Source: Fabrea salina (lineage: Eukaryota > Ciliophora > Heterotrichea > Heterotrichida > Fabreidae). From it: a DNA stretch of 64,000 bases. The notes beneath the pieces are model-generated. The model was given only the letters and a program-made list of their open reading frames with translations. It did not search any database and was not told where the DNA came from. The DNA is taken from NCBI GenBank assembly GCA_022984795.1, contig JALIHJ010000034.1:186001-250000 (forward strand), in the 5' to 3' direction. The translations under genes and the position numbers were made by a program. This document shows positions 2-61,829 of this stretch, piece by piece. Within the stretch, counting starts at the first letter, position 1. Each line of letters opens with the position of its first letter.

Positions 2-121
2 CTTGTACAGAGCAAAATGGAAGCTTTGGATGACGAAATCCAAGAAATTGAAGAAACTGAACGCAAAAGAACTTATGAGTACTATGCTGAAAAAAAGCCT
101 CCCTCCGAAAACGTTAGTTAA
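2..121 (+). CDS. 3' end of an unidentified gene (partial)
   Basis: This is an open frame entering from the left edge and ending at TAA. It encodes the last 39 residues of a protein whose start lies outside the window. The visible tail is highly charged and acidic, then basic (ALDDEIQEIEETERKRTYEYY...), as in a coiled-coil or disordered C-terminus. It converges on the RNF114-like gene with a 9 bp spacer. The other two forward frames do not stay open. No function can be assigned from the tail. The call rests on frame continuity and on the same tight convergent spacing seen elsewhere in the window. Confidence 0.6.
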   Translation, partial: LVQSKMEALDDEIQEIEETERKRTYEYYAEKKPPSENVS

Positions 122-130
122 ATATGTGTA

Positions 131-748
131 TTAAAACTCTTGCATAGAGGCTTCCAAAACCTGCTTAAGGATTTCATCGTCGTTTTTTTCAAAGTCAGTG
201 TAAGTGTCCAGGTCGTACTTGTGCCTTAAACTCAGATGAGCAAACAAGTTGTGACTCACATAGTTAGGGTTGCCCCAAGGCATCACTGCACAAATAGGAC
301 ACACAGCTGCTGATCCTTGGTGATTTTGGCCAAAGTGCGTGATTAAAGCACTCCTGTCTAAGTGGTTCAAGTCGCAGCAAGGACATTTGAAAGTACCCCT
401 GTTCACAGTGCGAGTGCTGGACTTTTTGGTGTTCTGGACAGCTTCTTGGATGGTTCGGTGCATATAAGCGCAGGAGTCTTGATGTGCGTTGTACCTTGAA
501 TACAACATAGACTCTCCGCATTTGCACAGGTACTCAGATCGCGATATTTGAGATTCAAGGCTTTGGTCCGTCAAAAGCGAGTCTTTATTTAGTTCACTTC
601 TGCAAACAGGACAAGAACTACTTACTTGCAAAAGACTGTTAATGCACTTTGAACAAAAATAGTTGTTACAAGCTAGGTGGAATTGGGGAGTTTCTAGAAC
701 ATAGTAACAGATTTTGCACTGGAATTCATGCTTGAGTTCGCTCTCCAT
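131..748 (-). CDS. RNF114/RNF138/RNF166-type RING E3 ubiquitin ligase
   Basis: The protein has 205 aa and the family's usual order: N-terminal RING (C11, C14, C27, C32, C35, C46, C49), a C2HC finger around 75-93, paired C2H2-like fingers at about 120-175, and a C-terminal ubiquitin-interacting motif around 187-204 (NDDEILKQVLEASMQ). Human relatives are about 230 aa with the same order, so this should be a ubiquitin ligase with its own ubiquitin-binding tail. The RING is odd: where the family has C-G-H-x-F-C it reads C-N-N-Y-F-C, so the usual metal-binding His is Asn29. His24 lies nearby and might substitute. The stop is TAA. The gene sits 20 bp downstream of the histidine kinase on the same strand. 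Confidence 0.82.
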   Translation of the reverse strand: MESELKHEFQCKICYYVLETPQFHLACNNYFCSKCINSLLQVSSSCPVCRSELNKDSLLTDQSLESQISRSEYLCKCGESMLYSRYNAHQDSCAYMHRTIQEAVQNTKKSSTRTVNRGTFKCPCCDLNHLDRSALITHFGQNHQGSAAVCPICAVMPWGNPNYVSHNLFAHLSLRHKYDLDTYTDFEKNDDEILKQVLEASMQEF

Positions 749-3990: not shown

Positions 3991-4656
3991 TCACTGAAGT
4001 TTAACACATTGGTCGGAACCTGGGTAAGTAGGCAGTTCAAATTCGAGTTCTTGTTGCAAAGTAGGAGGCACAAACCTCCCCCCCACATAGTGGGTTCCAG
4101 AGTAGTTTTCCATGCACAGCTTAGGTGCAGTCAAGGAAACAACCATTCTAGGGCAGATTCCTTCAGAAACATTGCCTTGTTCCACGTCCCATCCACTAGG
4201 AATGTCCACACTCACTATGTCCTTCCCGCTGTCCTTCATATTTCGAAGCACGCTGTCGAAAGGCTCCCTTACTTGGCCTTTAAAAGAAAACCCAAACACA
4301 GCGTCTACCAGAAAAGAGTATTCTGAGTAGTTGATGTCAGATTCCAGAATCGGTATGTTCAAAGCTGAGCACTGCATCATGAGCTTCAAGTAAACTTGGT
4401 TTTGGGTGGGTTTAGGGTAAAAGATTGTGGGTACAAACCCGAAGTGGAACAGGTGTCTAGCTGCTACTAGCCCGTCGCCTCCATTGTTCCCTGGTCCGCA
4501 GATTACTAGAACTTTTGCTGGGCTGAATTCTTTTGCAATGCTTTGGGCTACTGAAAGTCCTGCCAGCTCCATTAACTGCTCTAGTGAAAAAGCTAGTGGC
4601 CCCATTAGCTTTTCGTCAACAAACTTCGCAGTTTCTTGAGAAAGAAACTTCTTCAT
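3991..4656 (-). CDS. NAXE: NAD(P)H-hydrate epimerase
   Basis: The protein has 221 aa with YjeF_N features: VICGPGNNGGDGLVAARHL (residues 51-69), a metal-binding acidic site FLVDAVFGF (Asp118) and VSVDIPSGWDVEQG. It interconverts R- and S-forms of damaged hydrated NAD(P)H so that the dehydratase can repair them. The C-terminus LPTYPGSDQCVKLQ resembles animal NAXE ends and is followed by TGA. This is one of the clearest signs that TGA means stop here. No dehydratase partner is in the window. There is no obvious targeting peptide, so cytosolic location is assumed. It is divergent from the AGC-like kinase across 47 bp. Confidence 0.93.
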   Translation of the reverse strand: MKKFLSQETAKFVDEKLMGPLAFSLEQLMELAGLSVAQSIAKEFSPAKVLVICGPGNNGGDGLVAARHLFHFGFVPTIFYPKPTQNQVYLKLMMQCSALNIPILESDINYSEYSFLVDAVFGFSFKGQVREPFDSVLRNMKDSGKDIVSVDIPSGWDVEQGNVSEGICPRMVVSLTAPKLCMENYSGTHYVGGRFVPPTLQQELEFELPTYPGSDQCVKLQ

Positions 4657-4703
4657 TTATAGTAAACTAAATGGTTAAAGGGTTAAAAAGCTAGTAGCTA
4701 TAA

Positions 4704-5678
4704 ATGGAAATTCAGAGTAAGGTTTTTTTAAGCGAGTTTAAGTTCCTTGGGGTGATTGGAGAAGGTAGTTTTGGCAGGGTTTACTTAGTGCAAAACAAAG
4801 CAAACTTAAACTTGTACGCACTCAAAACAATCAAAAAGCTTGAAAACCCCACAGAACACCAAGTCAACCTTATAGCTACTGAAAGGGATATTCTTATGCA
4901 TAATGAGAACCCTTTTATTATAAAGCTGTACGCCTTTTTCCAATCCAAGAATTATGTATACTTTTTACTAGAACACTGCTCCCAGGAGAATTTATCACAT
5001 TTAATTTTGAGAGAAAAAAAGTTATCAGAAGCAACAGCTAAGTTCTATGCTGGGTGTTTGGTGCTAGGCATCGAGTACCTACACAGCAAAGGCATCATTT
5101 ACAGAGACCTTAAGCCTGAAAATATACTGATAGACAAAAGGGGTTATGCTAAAATTGCTGACTTTGGACTCTCAGAAAAGGGTTTTTCCCTTGATACTAA
5201 GAGTTTCAAGTTTCGCGGTACAATTAACTACATGCCTCCTGAGATGGTAGCTGGAATAGGCTACGGTTTAACTGCTGACTGGTGGAGTTTAGGAGTTGTT
5301 ATCTACGAAATGCTAGTTGGAGTTCCGCCTTTTATCCGTCAAAAAAAGAAAAGGCTATTCAAAGCAATCATTAGAAGACCAGCAAGGCTACCTGATGAGT
5401 CAACAGTTGAGTTAATAGACTTACTCGACAAGCTTTTGCGCAAAAACCCCAAGAACAGAATAGGCTGTGAGTATGATTCAATGAAGATTAAGATTCATCC
5501 TTGGTTCAGAGAAATTGACTGGGAAAAACTCCAAAGATTAGAACTAGAACCCCCTATAGTGCCCATTCCACCTGAAATCATTCAAGAAGTTACTGGAATT
5601 GACGAAGAATTTTTAGGTGACGAAGTATATTTAGGAGAAGACTCTTACTCGAGTTTAACTCCGTATTTCATAATGTAA
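4704..5678 (+). CDS. AGC-family protein kinase lacking the usual T-loop threonine
   Basis: The protein has 324 aa and is almost all kinase domain: glycine loop GEGSFGRVY (19-27), ATP lysine YALK (Lys41), C-helix Glu60, catalytic loop YRDLKPEN (Asp135), DFG (Asp153), then MPPE in place of APE and DWWSLGVVIYEMLVG. The layout is PKA/S6K/SGK-like. The position equal to PKA Thr197 or Akt Thr308 is Lys169 (SFKFRGT), so activation by PDK1 at that site seems impossible. The C-terminal tail has FLGDEVYLGEDSYSSLTPYF but no clear FxxF hydrophobic motif. All catalytic residues remain, so it is probably active without T-loop phosphorylation. The next gene starts 4 bp after its stop in another frame. Confidence 0.88.
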   Translation: MEIQSKVFLSEFKFLGVIGEGSFGRVYLVQNKANLNLYALKTIKKLENPTEHQVNLIATERDILMHNENPFIIKLYAFFQSKNYVYFLLEHCSQENLSHLILREKKLSEATAKFYAGCLVLGIEYLHSKGIIYRDLKPENILIDKRGYAKIADFGLSEKGFSLDTKSFKFRGTINYMPPEMVAGIGYGLTADWWSLGVVIYEMLVGVPPFIRQKKKRLFKAIIRRPARLPDESTVELIDLLDKLLRKNPKNRIGCEYDSMKIKIHPWFREIDWEKLQRLELEPPIVPIPPEIIQEVTGIDEEFLGDEVYLGEDSYSSLTPYFIM

Positions 5679-5682
5679 ATAA

Positions 5683-6222
5683 ATGGAAAGTAATTGTTTT
5701 GGAGATATTAGTCAAAAACGTAAAGCTGAAAAGTTCTCTCAGCTCAAAGCAATAGTACAACAGATAAGGGAATTCAGTAACCAAAGCATCAGTATCTTAG
5801 AAGTAGCAACGCAAGACTTATACAACAGCATACATCAAGTATACCTTAGTATTGCAGAGGAACAGCGAACTATGAATGAAATGGTTACCAAACTAGAAAA
5901 AGACCTTGAAAAGACTCTAGAAATACCCCAACTAGACAAAACCAACCCTTTGCATAACTTGTTTTTAAAAACTGATGCTGAAATTGACGATTACAACTCT
6001 GACTGTTTTGAGTTATTTTCAAGCTTAAACGAGAAAAGGTTCAAAACTAAACTTGTTCACTTCGAAAACTTAAACAAAAAACTCTTTAAAATCTCGAAAC
6101 ACCTAAAAACAACCCTTAGAAACGAAAAGGCCGCCAACCTTTACTTAAAACTCGAAGAAGAAGCAGACGGTTTCTGGATCAAACTGCAAACCAAGAACTT
6201 TGATATATATTCTAACCAATAA
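5683..6222 (+). CDS. Short coiled-coil protein of unknown function
   Basis: The protein has 179 aa, is rich in Lys, Glu, Leu and Gln, and has heptad-like spacing over most of its length (for example QQIREFSNQSISILEV and MVTKLEKDLEKTLE). No domain is recognised. It starts 4 bp after the kinase stop, at an ATG in the context aataaATGG shared by many genes here, and ends 3 bp before the convergent START gene. It could be a B-box-less remnant of a coiled-coil family or a scaffold. A 16-nt intron joining it to the kinase was considered and judged unlikely because the segment lacks the branch A and pyrimidine seen in the confirmed introns. Confidence 0.65.
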   Translation: MESNCFGDISQKRKAEKFSQLKAIVQQIREFSNQSISILEVATQDLYNSIHQVYLSIAEEQRTMNEMVTKLEKDLEKTLEIPQLDKTNPLHNLFLKTDAEIDDYNSDCFELFSSLNEKRFKTKLVHFENLNKKLFKISKHLKTTLRNEKAANLYLKLEEEADGFWIKLQTKNFDIYSNQ

Positions 6223-6225
6223 CTG

Positions 6226-6951
6226 TTACTTTTCTTCTAAGTATTTACGGACGTTGTGCAGTGCGTTGTGTCTTCTAGCGTGGGCTTCTTTAATAACTGG
6301 GTTAGGAATCTTGCCTTTCATGTCAATAGAAGTGATGTAGGTCAGTTCTGTCCGGTCGGGTTTCTGTAAAGGGTGCTTGGCAATGAACCCAGCATAGTTC
6401 ATAAATCCTCTTACGGTGTCTTTCTCCTGGGGTTCTATTTCTAAGTCTATGCTTTTCAGGATGTAAGCATACCCGTCGTCAAGTTCTTTGACTGTCTCTG
6501 CTAACACAAACTCACGCGGACTCACAGGCCAACTTAAGCTTAGTTTGTAGTAAAGGATGCTGAAGTTCCCTAGTTTCTTCAGGTAGTGGCAGTCTAAACA
6601 GACTTCGTTCCACTTTTTCCAGTTCAAAGGGTCTTTTATGAACTTGATTACGTTGATCGGAGGAGCCATTATCATTCCTTGGCGCTTCCTTACTTCTCCA
6701 GCTTCGTGAGTTAGTTCTTTTTTTTGAATTAAGGTTTCGTACTTGTCATAGATTACTTGCCACCCAAATTCTGACTTATAGTCGTGCATGCATTTTTTCC
6801 AAGCTTGCTCTGTAGCTATTTCACATAGCTCAGTAAGCCCTGCTTCACTGGCATCTGGACTAAGCACAAGCTTCTTAGAAGAAGCTGAAATGTCGCTGTA
6901 GTTTCTAAGTAAGCAAGAAAGCCTTTTCCCCGACAGCATTTTATAAGCCAT
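6226..6951 (-). CDS. START-domain lipid-transfer protein
   Basis: The protein has 241 aa with a START domain over about residues 45-235. Typical segments are YDKYETLIQKK, the arginine- and methionine-rich strand VRKRQGMIMAPP, WKKWNEVCLDCHYLKKL, SLSWPVSPREFVL (family pattern WP.s.RDFv), and the last amphipathic helix EAHARRHNALHNVRKYLEE. START domains bind one lipid or sterol in a deep pocket. There is no signal peptide and no membrane span, so it is probably cytosolic, in the manner of PCTP. The ligand cannot be inferred. Confidence 0.85.
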   Translation of the reverse strand: MAYKMLSGKRLSCLLRNYSDISASSKKLVLSPDASEAGLTELCEIATEQAWKKCMHDYKSEFGWQVIYDKYETLIQKKELTHEAGEVRKRQGMIMAPPINVIKFIKDPLNWKKWNEVCLDCHYLKKLGNFSILYYKLSLSWPVSPREFVLAETVKELDDGYAYILKSIDLEIEPQEKDTVRGFMNYAGFIAKHPLQKPDRTELTYITSIDMKGKIPNPVIKEAHARRHNALHNVRKYLEEK

Positions 6952-11396: not shown

Positions 11397-12007
11397 TTTA
11401 TTCAACAACCTAATCAACGGCCTAAGAGTTAGTCAATATGGATGAACTGCCTGAATTCACTCAAGCTTTAAACAAGCACTTTGGTTAATAGCACTGCCAG
11501 ATAGCTGACAACTCACCAACTTGCAATATCCATCAATGAACTTTAATTTTAAACCAAATAACTTCCTAAAAGGCTTAAAGAAGTGACTTGGAAGCTTTCC
11601 AAGCATTCAAGCTTCTAAAAAGCCTTGTGGGGTTCGGTAGTAGTTGCGTCAAAAGGGGTTTTAAATTTTCTCAACAACCAAAATGGCTAATAAAAATAAA
11701 AGGTCAGGAGATTTTACCATTGCAAGCACGCTAACCCAAGCTTTAGAAGTCATTTGTGCTCCGACGGCCAATAAAGCCACTAAGCAGATACCTGAGAGCG
11801 TTCTTTCCATTTTCCTCAGCAAAACTTAGTTAGTTAAGAGTAAATTTAATTTCTTCTACAACCTAAAAACTGGGAGTTGGCAGACTTTTAGACACTTCTA
11901 TAGTGCTAGTTAAAGGTAACTAGAAACTCTGTTTTGAACACTGCCTAAGTTCACCAGAAAGAACCACTGCTGATAGAATACTACTCGATTCCTCTAAGCT
12001 TAATTAG
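11397..12007 (-). other. Longest spacer in the window (611 bp)
   Basis: Apart from the remnant at 11661-11810 I see no gene, repeat or RNA here. The sequence is AT-rich with scattered TTAATTA and TTAGTTAGTTAA motifs near both edges, and it is several times longer than any other spacer. It presumably holds the promoter of the single-domain gene, the 3' region of the remnant's former body, and the terminator side of the nine-domain gene. Confidence 0.5.
11661..11810 (-). pseudogene. Signal-peptide remnant of the DOMON-like family
   Basis: This is an ORF of 49 codons starting MERTLSGICLVALLAVGAQM, nearly the same as the signal peptide of the gene at 10731-11396 and close to that of the nine-domain gene. 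After residue 20 there is no DOMON sequence, only an unrelated stretch ending in a hydrophobic segment (LLFLLAILVV) and TAA. The simplest reading is a fourth family member that lost its body by deletion. A tiny secreted peptide is the alternative. Confidence 0.6.
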
Positions 12008-15000
12008 TTAAAAGAAGACTTCAAGAACTAATAAGAGTAGTAAAGTGCAGAAACTAGAAGCACTGTCGTCCTCAGGGAAAGTAGCTCTTCCGGAGAAATC
12101 ATTATTGAAAAGGATTGTTGCATTGCCCCTGTCAGTGTATTTGTGCTTCTGGATTACACCATCACTCATTTTTCCGTATGCAAAAAGCAAGGTGTACTCG
12201 CCCCTCTCAGTCAAGTTAAGGAAGCCATTTGACAGAGTTTGGGAGTCCATAGTCCAACTAAGCACTAAGTTTCCTTTTGAGTTGGTGAAATGCGAGAAGT
12301 ACTTGTAAGGGTTGCTGTTGTACTTTTGAGGACGTCCGTTTTCAGTGTAGTTAATGGTGTTCATAGCCACTAACTTCGGACTAGAAAGGTCTTCGACTAC
12401 AGTGTACTCTGCGTTGATCATTGAAAGGGTGTTAGAGGGTTCTTTCAGTCCTATTCCATACCAGTCATAATCACTAACTATTTCTGGGTCAATGCTGAGC
12501 TCGAAGTCAGCTCCGGTGTTTGAGACATGCCATTTGAAAGTAGCGTTTTTAAGTATTTCTTGGCCCATGTTTATGACCGGAACAGTAGCCTTTCCAGAGA
12601 AGTAGTTGGAAAGAGTAATGTTTCCATAACCTCTGTTGGAGCTTTCGTGCTTCTGGATTGTGCCGTCAGTCATTTTTCCGTAGGCAAATAGTACAGTGTA
12701 GTTGCTTTTGGCAGTTAGGTTCAGAGGTTGGTTATTGGTATTGTTCAGCGGCATAGTCCAGTTCACCACTAAGTTTTCGTTTGAGTCGGTGGAGCTAGAA
12801 ACTTTAGTAAAAGGACTTGGAGTGTAATCTTGAGGACGTCCGTTTTCAGTGTAGTTAATGGTGTTCATAGCCACTAACTTCGGGTTAGAAAGGTTCTCAA
12901 CTACAGCGTAAGTTGCGTTAATCATCGAAGCAGTGCTTGAGGGTTCCTTTAGCCCTATTCCGTACCAGTCATAGTTTTTAACTACAGCTGAGTTTACAGT
13001 AAGTTGGAACTGAACGTTATCTTCTGAAACAATCCATTGTAAGGTACCGTTCTTCAGAACTTCTTTGCCAGAGCTTATTGGTGGAATAGTAGCTTTTCCA
13101 GAGAAGCTGTTTGATAGAACGATGTTTCCGTAACCTCTGTTCTCACTTTCGTGTTTCTGGATTGTGCCGTTGCTCATCTTTCCGTAGGCAAAGAGTAGAG
13201 TGTACTCGCCACCTATTTCTAGATCAAGAGTGCTATTGGTAAAGACACCGAAGGGTAACTTCCAAGTAGCTACTAAGTTTCCACTTGAGTCGGTAGAATA
13301 TTTAAAGTCTTTATAAGGATTGAGAGTTTGGTTTTGAGGACGCCCACTTTGATCGTAGCCTACAGTGTTCATGGCTTGGAGAGTTGGGTTGGAAAGGTTC
13401 TTCACTATAGCATACTCTGCGTTCATCATAGAAACGATGTCTGAACGCTTTTTCAGTCCTATTCCGTACCAGTCATAGTTACTGACTACAGTCGAGTTAA
13501 TAGTGAGTTGGAATTCAACAGCTGTTTGAGAAACAAGCCATTCTAAATTTCCGTTTTTCAGGATTTCCTTACCCATCTTCTTAGCAGGAATAGTAGTGTC
13601 CCCAGAGAAGGTGTTTGATAGAACGATTTTTCCATAGCCCCTGTTGTTGCTTTCGTGCCTCTGGATTACTCCGTTGCTCATTTTTCCGTAAGCAAACAGC
13701 AAAGTGTAGTTGTTTCCTTCCTTCAACTTAAGGGTGGAGTTAGAGAAAGTATATAGAGGCAGAGTCCAGTTCATTACTAAGTTTCCAGTTGAGTTAGAGT
13801 ATGAAATGTACTCAAATGGATACGAGGTATCGTTTTGAGGACGTCCATTCTCGAGGTAGCCCATAGTGTTCATAGCTTGCAGGGTTGGGCTGGAAAGGTT
13901 CTTCACTACAGCATACTCTGCTTCAGTCATTGAATTTCCAGATGGCTCTCTCAGGCCTATTCCATACCAGTCATACTCATTAACCACACTTGAGTTTACA
14001 GTAAGCTCAAATGTAGCTGTGGCCCTTGCAACATACCACCGCAAAGTTCCACCTTTCAAGGTTTCATTGCCCATCTTGTCAGCTGTATAAAGAGCATACC
14101 CAGCAAAGTCATTCGAGAGAGTGATATTTCCGTAACCCCTGTTGGTGCCTTCGTGTTTCTGGATTGTGCCGTTGGTCATTTTTCCGTAAGCAAAGAGTAG
14201 AGTGTAGAAGCCTCCTGGAGTTAAGTTAAGAGTAGAGTTAGAGAAAGCACTGAATGGCAAAGTCCAACTGACCAGTAAGTTCCCTTTTGAGTCAGTAGAG
14301 TTTGAGAAGCTTTTGTAAGGATTGAGAGTTTGGTTTTGAGGACGTCCATTTGCAGTATACCCCACAGTGTTCATGGCTTGAAGAGTTGGGCTAGAAAGGT
14401 TCTTCACTATAGCATACTCTGCGTTGGCCATTGAAACAGTGCTTGAAGGTTTCTTTAGAGCAACTCCGTACCAGTCGTAGTCTTTGACCACACTAGAGTC
14501 AATAAAAAGGTAGAATTCAACAGCTTTTTGAGAAACAAGCCAATGTAAGTCTCCCCCCTTAAGTACTTCTTTACCCATCTTCTTAGCAGGAATAGTAGCT
14601 TTTCCATAGAAAGTGTTAGACAGAGTGATGTTTCCGTAACCTCTGTTCTCACTTTCGTGCCTTTGAATTGTGCCGTTGCTCATTTTTCCGTAGGCAAAGA
14701 GTAGAGTGTAGTTGCCTCCTTCAGTCAAGTTAAGAGTAGAGTTAGAGAAAGTATCCAATCCCAGAGTCCAGTTCACTAATAAGTTGCCATTTTCAATAGA
14801 GCTTGAAACATACCTAAAGGTTTTTTTAGTGTCATTTTGAGGAAGCCCGTTCGCAGCATACCCAACAGTATTCATGTCTTGCAAGGTTGGGTTAGAAAGG
14901 TTCTTTACCACAGCATACTCTGCATTAGCCATTGAGTTATCACCATGGGCTTCTTTCAAGCCTATTCCATACCAGTCGTACTCACTAACCACACTTGAGT

Positions 15001-16744
15001 CAACAGTGAGCAGAAAATCAACTACAGTTTGCGAAACATTCCATTTTAAGTTTCCATTTTTCAGGATTTCTTGTCCTAACTGAGGTGGAATAGTAGTATT
15101 TCCGTAAAAGTTGTTGGAAAGAGTAATGTCTCCGTAACCTCTGTTAGAAACTCCGTGCTTCTGAATTTGGCCACCACTCATTTTCCCGTAAGCGAACAGT
15201 AAAGTGTAGTTGTTCCCTTCCTTTAGGTTAAGAGTGCTATTGGAAATTTTACCTAGGGACAAAGTCCAACTCATTTGCATGTCTCCGTTTGAGTAGTATT
15301 TGTAAGAGACTCCACTGAAAAGGTTTCCGGTGTCGTTACGAGGACGCCCGCTTTCAGTGTACCCCATGGTGTTCATAGCTTGCAGGGTTGGGTTAGAAAA
15401 GTCTTTTACTACAGCATAGGTTGCGTTGATCATCGAGATCCCATCAGACCGTTCTTTCAAGCCTATTCCGTACCAATCAAAGTTACTAACTACGGTTGAA
15501 TTGATGGTAAGTTGGAATTTAACATTGTCATTTGAAACCTTCCACCTTAAGTTGCCGTTTTTCAGGTTCTCTTGTCCCATTTCATCAGGAGTAGTAGCCT
15601 TTCCAGAGAAGGTATTGGACAAAGTAATGTTTCCATAACCTCTGTTGGTGCCTTCATGCTTCTGGATTACTCCCTTAATCATTTTTCCGTAGGCAAAGAG
15701 TAGAGTGTATTGGCTGTCTTTGGTCAAGTTAAGTGTTTGGCCTTGAGTAGAGGTGTTCAGCTGTCTAGCCCAGATTACTGAAACTTTTCCTTCATTTCGA
15801 GAAGCCCAGTCATATGTGAGCTCATCGATAGAGTTGTTCTTAGGACGTCCATTTGCGTAGTAGCCAAAGGTATTCATGTGGAATAACCGCATTTGACTAG
15901 AAGAAAAGTTTTTGACTACAAAGTACTCTGCATCAGTCATCGAAACAAAATCAGAGGGCTCTTTGAGGGCAACTCCGTACCAGTCATAACCTTTAGTTGC
16001 TTCTAAGTCAATAGTCAGGTTGAAGATCACTCTGTCGTTCAAAACCTGCCACTGCAAGTCTCCTCCCTTAATTACTTCTTTGCCCATCTTCTTACCAGGA
16101 ACAGTAGCTTCTCCGGTGAAGTTATTGAAGAGGGTGATGTTTCCATAACCCCTGTTGGTGGTGTAGTGAGGCTGTATTTGGTAGTTTTTGATTGTTCCGT
16201 AGGCGTAAAGTAGAGTATAATTGCCTCCTTGAGTTAAGTTAAGGGTTTGTTCTTTGATGTTAGTGTTCAAGTCTCTGGTCCAGCTCACCCAGATTTCAAA
16301 AGTGCTCTTTGAATGACCTGAATTTACAGTGTCGAATACTTTGATAGTGTTGTTTTGAGGACGGCTGTTTTCTTTGTACCCAAAGGTGTTCATATGGGAC
16401 ACTACTGGGTTACTGATGATGGTGCTTGAAACATCAATATTCCTCACCACAGCAAAGTCTGCATCAGCCATTGAAACTGTGCTGGAGGGATGCTTCAAGC
16501 CAACTCCAAACCAGTCGTAAAGTTCGTGTATTTCTGGCTGAATAGTGAGATTGAAAGTAACTTTGCTGCCTGAAACTTTCCATTCCAAAGTTGCACGGTC
16601 CAGTTGCTCCTGACCCCAGCCTGTAGTTTGGTAGTCATAAACGTCCTGGACTCCATAGCCTCTGATTGAGCCGTATTTAGTCATTTGTGCTCCTGCAATA
16701 CCTAACAGGGCCACTACGAAAATACTTAAGCAAGCCTTATCCAT
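12008..16744 (-). CDS. Nine-domain DOMON-like GPI-type surface protein, 1578 aa
   Basis: The protein has a signal peptide (MDKACLSIFVVALLGIAGAQ), nine tandem domains of about 168 aa, and a C-terminal GPI-type tail (DDSASSFCTLLLLLVLEVFF). Each domain runs: MGxExLKxGxLxWxV, (Y/F)DWYGxGLK, SMxxAEYxVVKN, MNTxGYxxxGRPQN, a W-T/R-x-L strand, YTLLFAYGKM, QKHExxNRGYGNITL. The pattern fits DOMON, the beta-sandwich of cellobiose dehydrogenase cytochrome, AIR12 and dopamine beta-hydroxylase. The Met of the SM block and the His of the QKH block, the expected heme ligands, are kept in all nine. N-glycosylation sequons are very dense (NLT, NST, NIT). No membrane spans other than the tail. Heme or sugar binding at the cell surface is inferred, not shown. 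The frame is intact over 4.7 kb, so the gene is under selection. Confidence 0.85.
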   Translation of the reverse strand: MDKACLSIFVVALLGIAGAQMTKYGSIRGYGVQDVYDYQTTGWGQEQLDRATLEWKVSGSKVTFNLTIQPEIHELYDWFGVGLKHPSSTVSMADADFAVVRNIDVSSTIISNPVVSHMNTFGYKENSRPQNNTIKVFDTVNSGHSKSTFEIWVSWTRDLNTNIKEQTLNLTQGGNYTLLYAYGTIKNYQIQPHYTTNRGYGNITLFNNFTGEATVPGKKMGKEVIKGGDLQWQVLNDRVIFNLTIDLEATKGYDWYGVALKEPSDFVSMTDAEYFVVKNFSSSQMRLFHMNTFGYYANGRPKNNSIDELTYDWASRNEGKVSVIWARQLNTSTQGQTLNLTKDSQYTLLFAYGKMIKGVIQKHEGTNRGYGNITLSNTFSGKATTPDEMGQENLKNGNLRWKVSNDNVKFQLTINSTVVSNFDWYGIGLKERSDGISMINATYAVVKDFSNPTLQAMNTMGYTESGRPRNDTGNLFSGVSYKYYSNGDMQMSWTLSLGKISNSTLNLKEGNNYTLLFAYGKMSGGQIQKHGVSNRGYGDITLSNNFYGNTTIPPQLGQEILKNGNLKWNVSQTVVDFLLTVDSSVVSEYDWYGIGLKEAHGDNSMANAEYAVVKNLSNPTLQDMNTVGYAANGLPQNDTKKTFRYVSSSIENGNLLVNWTLGLDTFSNSTLNLTEGGNYTLLFAYGKMSNGTIQRHESENRGYGNITLSNTFYGKATIPAKKMGKEVLKGGDLHWLVSQKAVEFYLFIDSSVVKDYDWYGVALKKPSSTVSMANAEYAIVKNLSSPTLQAMNTVGYTANGRPQNQTLNPYKSFSNSTDSKGNLLVSWTLPFSAFSNSTLNLTPGGFYTLLFAYGKMTNGTIQKHEGTNRGYGNITLSNDFAGYALYTADKMGNETLKGGTLRWYVARATATFELTVNSSVVNEYDWYGIGLREPSGNSMTEAEYAVVKNLSSPTLQAMNTMGYLENGRPQNDTSYPFEYISYSNSTGNLVMNWTLPLYTFSNSTLKLKEGNNYTLLFAYGKMSNGVIQRHESNNRGYGKIVLSNTFSGDTTIPAKKMGKEILKNGNLEWLVSQTAVEFQLTINSTVVSNYDWYGIGLKKRSDIVSMMNAEYAIVKNLSNPTLQAMNTVGYDQSGRPQNQTLNPYKDFKYSTDSSGNLVATWKLPFGVFTNSTLDLEIGGEYTLLFAYGKMSNGTIQKHESENRGYGNIVLSNSFSGKATIPPISSGKEVLKNGTLQWIVSEDNVQFQLTVNSAVVKNYDWYGIGLKEPSSTASMINATYAVVENLSNPKLVAMNTINYTENGRPQDYTPSPFTKVSSSTDSNENLVVNWTMPLNNTNNQPLNLTAKSNYTVLFAYGKMTDGTIQKHESSNRGYGNITLSNYFSGKATVPVINMGQEILKNATFKWHVSNTGADFELSIDPEIVSDYDWYGIGLKEPSNTLSMINAEYTVVEDLSSPKLVAMNTINYTENGRPQKYNSNPYKYFSHFTNSKGNLVLSWTMDSQTLSNGFLNLTERGEYTLLFAYGKMSDGVIQKHKYTDRGNATILFNNDFSGRATFPEDDSASSFCTLLLLLVLEVFF
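12008..16744 (-). repeat. Nine direct repeats of about 500 bp within the gene
   Basis: The block encoding (Y/F)DW(Y/F)G recurs at about 12461, 12964, 13470, 13965, 14471, 14969, 15471, 15980 and 16511, a period of roughly 495-540 bp. The central units are the most alike and the outer ones the most divergent, as expected if the array grew by unequal exchange in the middle. Confidence 0.85.
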
Positions 16745-16793: not shown

Positions 16794-17402
16794 TTAAAAA
16801 AAGACTTGAATAACTAACAAACCCAGAACACAAAGACCAGAAGCGCCTTCATCAGTAGCATTTCCGTAAAAGCCATTAGACAGTTTAATTCTTGCGTAAC
16901 CCCTGTCGGTGCTGTTATGTTTCTGAATAACACCTTTCTGGCTCTTCCCGTAACCCCAAAGCAAAGTGTAGTGACTCCCCTCAGCTAAATTAAGACTTTC
17001 ATTCTTAACACCTTTGTTCAGCTCTCTAACCCAACTCACAGACACCTCAGAAGAGTAAGTAAGCCCAAATGTTACTTCACTGAAGTCGTATTTAGTGCTT
17101 TTTTGAGGGCATTTATTTTTTTTATAGCCAAAAGTATTCATGTGGACCAAGTTTGGGTAAGAAAAGTCCCAAGAAAGACTTTGGATTATAGCAAAGTCTC
17201 CGTTGATCATTGAGCCCTCTGTAGAGTCTTTTAAGCCAACTCCGTACCAGTCATAGACCCTCCATATCTGGGGTTCGATTGTAAGATTAAACACCACTGA
17301 GTTGTTTGAAACCTTCCAGTACAAACTTGCGTGTTTCAAAACTTCCTGACTCCAGTCTTGGCCTGCAACACCTAGTGCCAAAAGAAGTCCCAGAAAAGCC
17401 AT
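16794..17402 (-). CDS. GPI-type surface protein with one DOMON-like domain
   Basis: The protein has 202 aa and is the third member of the local family. The signal peptide is MAFLGLLLALGVAG; the mature start DWSQEVLKHASLYWKVS matches the domain-start motif of the nine-domain neighbour. The single domain has YDWYGVGLKD, SMINGDFAIIQ, MNTFGYKKNKCPQK (Cys where the others have Arg), SWVREL, YTLLWGYGK and IQKHNSTDRGYARIKL. It ends with a GPI-type tail (DEGASGLCVLGLLVIQVFF). The candidate heme ligands Met and His are both present. It lies 49 bp upstream of the nine-domain gene on the same strand. Confidence 0.82.
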   Translation of the reverse strand: MAFLGLLLALGVAGQDWSQEVLKHASLYWKVSNNSVVFNLTIEPQIWRVYDWYGVGLKDSTEGSMINGDFAIIQSLSWDFSYPNLVHMNTFGYKKNKCPQKSTKYDFSEVTFGLTYSSEVSVSWVRELNKGVKNESLNLAEGSHYTLLWGYGKSQKGVIQKHNSTDRGYARIKLSNGFYGNATDEGASGLCVLGLLVIQVFF

Positions 17403-42064: not shown

Positions 42065-42694
42065 TTAAAGATAAATAACAGCAATTAACAGTGTAACTGC
42101 TATCAGATGCACAGAGTGTGAGGGCTTGCTTGTTTTTCTGAAGCTTTCTTCCGTAAGGTTTCTCATGTAGTTCACGTCTTCAAAAAAGTCCTGGGTGCCT
42201 TCAGGCAGGTGATCTAGGTATGGGTGGAAGTGGATCCTCATGCTGCACTCAAGGAAGTAACTAACATTCATTGAATTGGTTAGGCTTTCGTATAAGTCGT
42301 CTCCTGGAGCCAATAGGCAGTATTTCAATCCGTCAAAGGCACACTCACAAAACCAATTATCTCTGCCTGTTAGTTTGCAGTCACTGTCCTGAGAGCACTG
42401 TCTTGTGTTTTGGTTCCGGCTTTTCTCAGAAGTAGTAATTCTATAGGGATTAGCTACAATATCAACAGTTTCTTTGTAGATGTGAAACTTGTTAGGTGGC
42501 TTGTAGTTGCAAGGAACAAGTGTGGTGTTTTCTCGGTAGGCCTGGATAATGGAATCTAAACTGCATCCGTAGTCTTTGCAGGTACCTAAAAGGATTTCGT
42601 TGTTTTCAAACTTAGCACAGTAATTCTCCTGAGTGCGGTTGGACCTCATCACAGGGCACGCAGAAGCACCTAGTGCTAGAATTATCAAAATCAT
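42065..42694 (-). CDS. Secreted, probably GPI-anchored protein, 209 aa
   Basis: The signal peptide is MILIILALGASA. The mature part is Cys-rich with N-glycosylation sites (RSNRTQENYC, RENTTLVPC, MRNLTEES) and a block CSQDSDCKLTGRDNWFCECAFDGLKYCLL that should be disulfide-bonded. A hydrophobic C-terminus (SHSVHLIAVTLLIAVIYL) fits a GPI signal. The family was not recognised; it is unlike the DOMON group. Its ATG shares one base with the TAA of the upstream MORN gene. Confidence 0.75.
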   Translation of the reverse strand: MILIILALGASACPVMRSNRTQENYCAKFENNEILLGTCKDYGCSLDSIIQAYRENTTLVPCNYKPPNKFHIYKETVDIVANPYRITTSEKSRNQNTRQCSQDSDCKLTGRDNWFCECAFDGLKYCLLAPGDDLYESLTNSMNVSYFLECSMRIHFHPYLDHLPEGTQDFFEDVNYMRNLTEESFRKTSKPSHSVHLIAVTLLIAVIYL

Positions 42695-59391: not shown

Positions 59392-59874
59392 TTAAATTAT
59401 TGAGTCTAAGTGCCAAATAAGGCCGTGGAAAGTGCTGAAGCTCTTGACTTGCTCTACAAGTTTTTCCCACTCTTCTACACTTCGGATTTGTTCATCCAAG
59501 TAAGGCCCTAAGAATCTTTCAGTATCAAAGTCGTTGGTTTCTCGTGCTTGCGAGTACAGTTGGTGCAGGTCGCCATGGACTTGCCTTTCCAGGTCCAAGT
59601 AAAACTGGAAGGCTTGGACTTCATTCCCAAACTCAGTACTTGGGATTTGAGGTGGTTCAATTTTCACAGGCTCTTTTCTGAGCACCAAGTAGTCAAGGAT
59701 TGACTCAAAATGTTTCTTTTCTTCTTCAGCTTCTTGCTTGAGTCTCTTAGATATTCCGTCTAGGTGGCGGTGACTGAACCAGCAAGAGCCCTGCTGGTAC
59801 AGAATGTAAGCCTTGAGCTCAGTTGAGGCTTGTCTCAGTAGTCCAGTTTTGAGCGATGAAGCTAAACTTGCCAT
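59392..59874 (-). CDS. Ferritin
   Basis: The protein has 160 aa, a four-helix bundle. The ferroxidase site can be traced: Glu19 and Tyr26 (STELKAYILYQQ), Glu51/Glu52 and His55 (EEEKKHFE), Glu in LDLERQVHGDL, and Gln in LDEQIRSVEEWE. It therefore keeps the H-type catalytic site and resembles bacterial and protist ferritins more than animal L-chains. It oxidises Fe(II) and stores iron as a 24-mer. No leader peptide, so cytosolic. The C-terminus is short (GLIWHLDSII). Confidence 0.93.
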   Translation of the reverse strand: MASLASSLKTGLLRQASTELKAYILYQQGSCWFSHRHLDGISKRLKQEAEEEKKHFESILDYLVLRKEPVKIEPPQIPSTEFGNEVQAFQFYLDLERQVHGDLHQLYSQARETNDFDTERFLGPYLDEQIRSVEEWEKLVEQVKSFSTFHGLIWHLDSII

Positions 59875-60803: not shown

Positions 60804-61829
60804 ATGGTGAAAATATTTTTATTACCTTTGTTGATTTTTATTGCTTCGTGCTCCAACCTAAGACTTCCGAGCGTCAATCCCTCCACTTGGATATCAGACT
60901 CACTTAGTGTGTTGTCAGGTAAAACCCTAAAAGAAATAACCCTCCCGGGCACTCATGACAGTGGATCCTATAAGCTCACTTGGCTTCCAATGCCCGGCGC
61001 GGAGTCCGCAAAACTAGAAGCAGCTGCCAAAGTAGCTGAAGAGTTATTTGTTCCCACTGAGTGGGTCATCAAAGACTGGGCTAGATCACAAGATGAAGAC
61101 TTTTATTCCCAGATGCAAGGAGGCATCCGGTACTTCGACTTGCGTTGCGGATGGGATAACTCCACACAGCAGTGGAGGACCTTCCATTTCCTAATTGGTA
61201 ACCCCATAGATTCGCTACTCCAAGGCATCAGTAAGTTTTTAAAAGACTACCCAAAAGAGATTGTTGTTGTTGAAACTTCCCATTACGATGGAAGTCCATC
61301 TGAAAGCAACGTTAAGGTACTTAGAGACTTAGTTTTGGAACACCTGGGAGAGTACTTGTTTCCAGTCAACCTCAGTTTTAACTTCACAGTAGGGGATATG
61401 ATCTCTTCAGGCAAAAGGGCCATAGTCACTATGGACCATAAAGATTATAAGGCCTACAATATTTGGCCTGGAGATACTATCTACAATACCTATGCCGACT
61501 CAGACAACTTAGAAACTATGATTTCTTATAACAATAAAACAGTTGAGTACTTTGAAACAGGAAAGTGGGGCAAGGGCTTGTTTAAAATAAGTTGGACTCT
61601 GACGCCCAACGAAGAAACAATCCTTGAAACCCTGTTGTTCTGGAAGCCCCACAGTCTGATTGAGCTGGCAGACACTGCTAACCCAGCACTGCCCCAGTTT
61701 GTGAAAAGCATTACTTCTAAAAACTGGAGGACAGGCAACATTTTGATCATCGACCACTACGACAAGTCCTCCATTCTAGAAGTTGTTTTGGAAATGAACG
61801 GAATCCACTCCCCACTAATGGTTAATTAA
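60804..61829 (+). CDS. Secreted PLC-X-domain phospholipase
   Basis: The protein has 341 aa with a signal peptide ([17 protein letters not shown]). A PI-PLC X domain follows: [14 protein letters not shown] (catalytic His51), [43 protein letters not shown] (second catalytic His candidate). No Y, C2 or EF-hand domain is present, so it is of the bacterial/GPI-PLC type that cleaves phosphatidylinositol or GPI anchors without calcium. It would act in the secretory path or outside the cell. The last 4 bp overlap the Rab11 stop. Confidence 0.88.

Follow-up and report, generated by a model that had tools for sequence, protein, structure and literature searches.

A ciliate protein of nine tandem DOMON units with candidate heme ligands in every unit

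The stretch of DNA analysed here (64 kb, positions 186001-250000 of contig C31; hereafter, the window) comes from the genome of Fabrea salina (18.33 Mb, 103 contigs). On its reverse strand, at 12008..16744, lies an open reading frame, uninterrupted in the standard code, that specifies a protein of 1578 amino acids (aa), P0001; judged from its sequence, P0001 is a real nine-unit DOMON protein, with putative heme-type ligand residues, a Met and a His, in every unit. Stop codon usage, checked in 30 of the window's 49 open reading frames (TAA in 25, TAG in four, TGA in one), is compatible with a ciliate that uses the standard code. The preliminary description of this DNA had proposed nine tandem domains of about 168 aa, and this is borne out by a recurring DW(Y/F)G anchor, whose successive spacings of 177, 169, 167, 167, 168, 166, 168 and 168 aa define nine units. 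Delimited by these spacings, and all on the reverse strand, the units are D1 (residues 41-217, 16094..16624, with Met92 and His193), D2 (218-386, 15587..16093, Met269, His363), D3 (387-553, 15086..15586, Met438, His530), D4 (554-720, 14585..15085, Met605, His696; the best Pfam stretch, 565-686, lies here), D5 (721-888, 14081..14584, Met772, His864; the unit used for structure modelling), D6 (889-1054, 13583..14080, Met939, His1030), D7 (1055-1222, 13079..13582, Met1106, His1198), D8 (1223-1390, 12575..13078, Met1274, His1366) and D9 (1391-1558, 12071..12574, Met1442, His1534).

The units are flanked by features suggestive of export and surface attachment. The hydrophobic N-terminus (residues ~1-19; 16688..16744) is a putative signal peptide, and the C-terminal tail (12011..12070), judged by eye, resembles a glycosylphosphatidylinositol (GPI) signal, with small residues followed by a terminal hydrophobic run; similar tails were found in many paralogs. 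Residues 41-1558 contain 60 N-x-S/T sites, against 28.0 ± 4.5 in 2000 shuffled sequences (maximum 45), and the only two Cys residues, at positions 5 and 1566, both lie within the end signals. We infer, rather than compute, that P0001 is probably secreted, N-glycosylated and GPI-anchored. Peptidase_C13 (PF01650), the family to which the GPI transamidase belongs, was used to look for signs of GPI machinery in the genome; three matches were obtained, which may equally be other members of the family. Some PI-PLC-X enzymes act on GPI anchors, and a gene at 60804-61829 (forward strand), with a hydrophobic N-terminus, matches PI-PLC-X weakly (E=0.0052, below the cut-off).

The assignment of the units to the DOMON family held up at the level of both sequence and fold. 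P0001 matches the DOMON profile PF03351 with 126.7 bits, well above the Pfam cut-off of 32.7, and the predicted structure of D5 is a DOMON immunoglobulin-like beta-sandwich by fold search. Foldseek returned three rows at E<=0.001 for the D5 model, dopamine beta-hydroxylase (DBH) twice and 1pl3; most rows beyond these were antibodies, which form the background for beta-sandwich folds. In structural comparisons heme domains scored 11-13, CBM9 7.5 and unrelated antibody rows 6.8. These scores bear on sugar binding, the main alternative named in the preliminary description. P0001 would then be a sugar-binding surface coat or adhesin whose tandem DOMONs bind carbohydrate like their CBM9-type relatives, the Met and His having a structural or other role. 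We regard this as improbable: CBM9 falls below the heme domains and close to the antibody background, and sugar-binding DOMONs and DBH are reported, in the available part of the source, not to conserve the Met/His pair (PMC10691727).

The position of the two residues points instead to the cytochrome domain of cellobiose dehydrogenase (CDH). The D5 model aligns with PDB entry 1d7b over residues 1..159 and 13..178, respectively, and from these ranges His144 of the unit would fall on residue 163 of 1d7b and Met52 within one residue of position 65. Five genes of the same genome carry a DOMON fused to other redox domains (see below), and in the DOMON of one fusion protein the Met aligns with residue Met65 of 1d7b (a weak match, E=0.069; DBH at 1.3). 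When a profile of the P0001 units was compared by hhalign with one of canonical and fusion DOMONs (99.8%), Met fell on Met and His on His. The CDH-cyt family, PF16010, covers residues 35-168 of the fusion DOMON at profile positions 32-171, and a CDH fragment, residues 55-97, at 48-90; searched as whole proteins, two fusion proteins (locus L051) match it, of which one clears the cut-off and the other falls just short of it. Thus, by alignment ends and profile alignment, the Met and His of P0001 appear to occupy the positions of the CDH ligands Met65 and His163. By direct search at E<=10, neither P0001 nor the neighbouring DOMON proteins P0002 and P0003 matched PF16010, and P0001 did not match cytochrome b561 (PF03188); sequence searches of the PDB with P0001 and with the unit profile found no DOMON structure, another DOMON profile reached PDB entry 4qi3 weakly (E=0.41), and an NCBIfam search gave nothing for P0001 or P0002.

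Within P0001, the Met and the His are each present in 9/9 units, at spacings of 101, 94, 92, 91, 92, 91, 92, 92 and 92 residues from D1 to D9. The preliminary description had the pair kept in every unit, which stands, within the motifs SMxxAEY and QKHE, which fit some units only: D1 has SMADADF and QPHY, D3 has SMINATY and QKHG, D4 and D6 have QRHE and D9 has QKHK, the Met and His themselves being invariant. This constancy is more than expected by chance, since the units have diverged to 43-72% identity and His is scarce in P0001 (18 in 1578 aa), yet nine of the 18 occupy the conserved position. Pairwise ratios of nonsynonymous to synonymous change (dN/dS, NG86 method) lie at 0.13-0.49 in all 36 pairs of units, and a protein 94.1% identical to P0001 also keeps both residues in 9/9 units. 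A second Met, in the sequence MNT, is likewise invariant in the 11 DOMON rows of the window; it lies 19 residues past the candidate ligand Met in D3-D9, and is found in 36 of the 45 full-length DOMONs of the genome.

Those 45 domains come from the genome stretches examined and were picked out by a profile of the 11 DOMONs in the window, so that distant DOMONs are under-represented; they remained when nine of 54 genome rows were excluded as less than 75% filled. Because L015 and L006 duplicate L046 and L059, their rows were omitted from one alignment. Both residues are present in 41 of the 45, neither in four, and just one of the two in none (outside the window, 30 and four of 34 domains). The four pair-less domains sit in two genes that retain the domain itself, three in L045 (2051-3703) and one in L049 (1063-2246), which may serve as natural negative controls. 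The joint loss of Met and His suits a shared ligand and speaks further against the sugar-binding alternative; as the domains counted are related to one another, no p-value is attached to the counts. In the best tree the four pair-less domains, which have long branches, need two label changes, compatible with the pair having been lost either once or repeatedly. Eight further domains were aligned with another profile, and six of them read as having both residues; in one of the L052 proteins (L052B) the profile alignment did not cover the His region, so that the His was read from a plain alignment, and in the two L052 domains and in L056 the open frame begins with the codon of this Met, the upstream part lying outside the sequence examined. 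Three domains, one each in L041, L048 and L049, are split between frames and were read as pieces; the first two contain both residues, the third neither. L058 (3713-5083) is a two-DOMON protein whose first domain has the His, with the Met out of register.

Size and copy number of the family raise the possibility that P0001 belongs to a structural or variable coat, with a heme site inherited from a redox ancestor and copies that now mainly form a glycosylated surface layer. A search of the genome at the protein level gave matches at 45 places, of which 11 lie in the window, with architectures of one to nine DOMONs, some behind Cys-rich N-terminal modules; these numbers, the many predicted glycosylation sites of P0001 and the three-DOMON paralog L045, still in frame despite loss of the pair, would all suit such a coat. 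Against it, P0001 and its 94%-identical relative keep both residues in 9/9 units while other positions change, and we consider it unlikely. P0001 is the longest multi-DOMON protein among the loci examined, the next having four DOMONs. In a tree built without rows of fewer than 120 filled columns and without P0010 to P0014, its nine units do not form one clade: D1 clusters with an L047 domain, and D2 with domains from L046 and P0004. The units, as judged from the tree, arose by duplication, and because of these groupings not all of the duplications took place inside the P0001 gene.

P0001 is flanked by single-DOMON genes on the same strand, both with a similar tail, both keeping Met and His and both matching PF03351 below its cut-off: P0002 (202 aa; 16794..17402; E=0.0017, 19 bits) and P0003 (10731..11396; E=1.5e-5, 25.6 bits), whose translation begins one codon ahead of the ATG. 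Between P0003 and P0001, at 11751..11813 (reverse strand), sequence comparison points to the relic of a signal peptide from this family, not followed by a DOMON. Hybrid surface proteins in which the DOMONs follow a Cys-rich stretch of some 330-670 aa (resembling EB/Dickkopf, with scores below cut-off) are encoded at L041:4011-9401, L043:2990-6079, L044:680-3226 and L014:1339-2928, and in their N-terminal parts the L043 and L044 genes appear almost identical. A Cys-rich protein with hydrophobic ends, encoded at 42065-42694 (reverse strand), has some Cys positions in common with the hybrid module; identities in a three-row alignment are 24% and 22%. The window also encodes, both on the reverse strand, a hybrid histidine kinase with a receiver domain (769-2811) and a ferritin-like protein (59392-59874; E=1.6e-24). 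Rfam and tRNA scans of the 64-kb window were empty.

A candidate source of electrons was found in the five fusion genes mentioned above, two on contig C43, two on C37 and one on C65, which combine DOMON, b561, cytochrome b5 and flavin reductase domains: L051:2201-4432 and 4632-6749, L052:1953-3900 and 4979-6922, and L056:3479-5491. The b561 domain scores above the Pfam cut-off in L051:2201-4393, L052:2638-3900 and L056, and below it in L051:4632-6746 and L052:4982-6922. DOMON, b5 and flavin adenine dinucleotide (FAD)-binding domains are present in all five, and the nicotinamide adenine dinucleotide (NAD)-binding model was matched below its cut-off only. Four of the genes are in one open frame; L052:1953-3900 has its FAD part in a second, overlapping frame. 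A search of the genome with PF03188 gave three matches, all within these genes. The fusion proteins are a likely electron chain from the cytosol to the outside, which could run from NAD(P)H to the heme of an outer DOMON.

Heme could also be the cargo of P0001 rather than its cofactor. Tandem NEAT and CFEM proteins are hemophores, and surface units that capture heme, whether from prey or from the water, and pass it on would suit nine heme sites on one surface protein; the same conserved ligands would be expected. We give this heme-scavenging role little credence: the genome has a ferrochelatase gene, so that the cell probably makes its own heme, and CDH sites of the type seen in P0001 serve electron transfer, as stated in the accessible part of the source (PMC11112829).

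The best reading of P0001 is thus a nine-heme chain. Position, conservation, joint loss and the literature agree on the Met/His pair as heme ligands, and the heme-type DOMON chain proposed in the preliminary description gains support from the Pfam and fold tests and from the location of the pair at the CDH ligand positions. Each unit would most likely hold one heme b between the Met of its SM motif and the His of its Q-x-H motif, as do the CDH cytochrome domain and AIR12. The nine units, their fold, the conservation and joint loss of the pair, its alignment with heme ligands and the fusion genes are computed results. Heme binding, electron transfer and the source of the electrons are what we infer here: heme is very probably held in most of the units and, given heme, a redox role is likely. 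As a whole, we lean towards a surface chain of nine heme-b DOMONs that acts as an extracellular electron carrier or buffer. Multi-DOMON proteins such as this would take up, and then carry or store, electrons from the fusion proteins of the same genome, and single electrons would be passed to iron, copper, oxidants or partner proteins.

Some of our results weigh against this account. As many as 26 columns, those of Met and His included, are invariant among the 11 window DOMONs, so that the invariance of the pair in those rows alone is unremarkable; it becomes special because only five columns (W, G, M, G and H) remain invariant in 16 more diverse DOMONs, in rows chosen by us. The second domain of L058, distant and outside the set of 45, has the Met without the His, an exception to joint loss. 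A model of two consecutive units has a junction of low confidence (predicted local distance difference test, pLDDT, of 61 for the block; predicted template modelling score, pTM, of 0.56), and thus gives no support to a fixed arrangement of units or, with it, to directed flow down the chain. A flexible wire or capacitor outside the cell, in which a single GPI-anchored polypeptide carries nine b-type hemes and takes its charge from cytosolic NAD(P)H via the fusion proteins, is a tentative and rather doubtful extension; if true, it would be a eukaryotic, non-c-type counterpart of the bacterial multiheme surface conduits, built by tandem duplication of DOMON.

A literature search revealed no work on ciliate DOMON proteins by title and abstract, most subscription papers being outside its coverage, and, by title among the matches listed, no paper on chains of many DOMONs or on a DOMON-b561-b5 fusion. 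In AIR12, heme b is held by Met and His. AIR12 of plants is, in the available text, a secreted DOMON protein that ends in a GPI-type tail and lacks a membrane cytochrome (PMC10784544), features that P0001 seems to share; it has one DOMON and P0001, in a ciliate, has nine. The CDH cytochrome domain (PF16010; 1d7b, 1pl3) is single and fused to a flavin dehydrogenase, and the units of P0001 show no direct sequence match to it; for one CDH a Soret band near 420 nm, shifting to about 429 nm when reduced, has been reported. The DOMON of DBH (PDB entry 4zel) lacks heme ligands and has too narrow a pocket, according to the accessible part of the source (PMC4846438), whereas P0001 keeps the pair. CYBDOMs (HYP1, CRR, CG8399/SDR2) are described, in the excerpts available, as having a Met/His DOMON that faces the outside, with M90/H174 as candidate heme ligands in HYP1 (PMC10784544); they carry a membrane domain, as P0001 does not, and the Fabrea genome has its own five DOMON-b561 fusions. 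Where insect CYBDOMs exceed one DOMON, the number reported in the part of the source available is two (19 of 888; PMC10691727), against nine in P0001. If our reading is right, a eukaryote fills with b-type DOMON cytochromes the role of the bacterial c-type multihemes.
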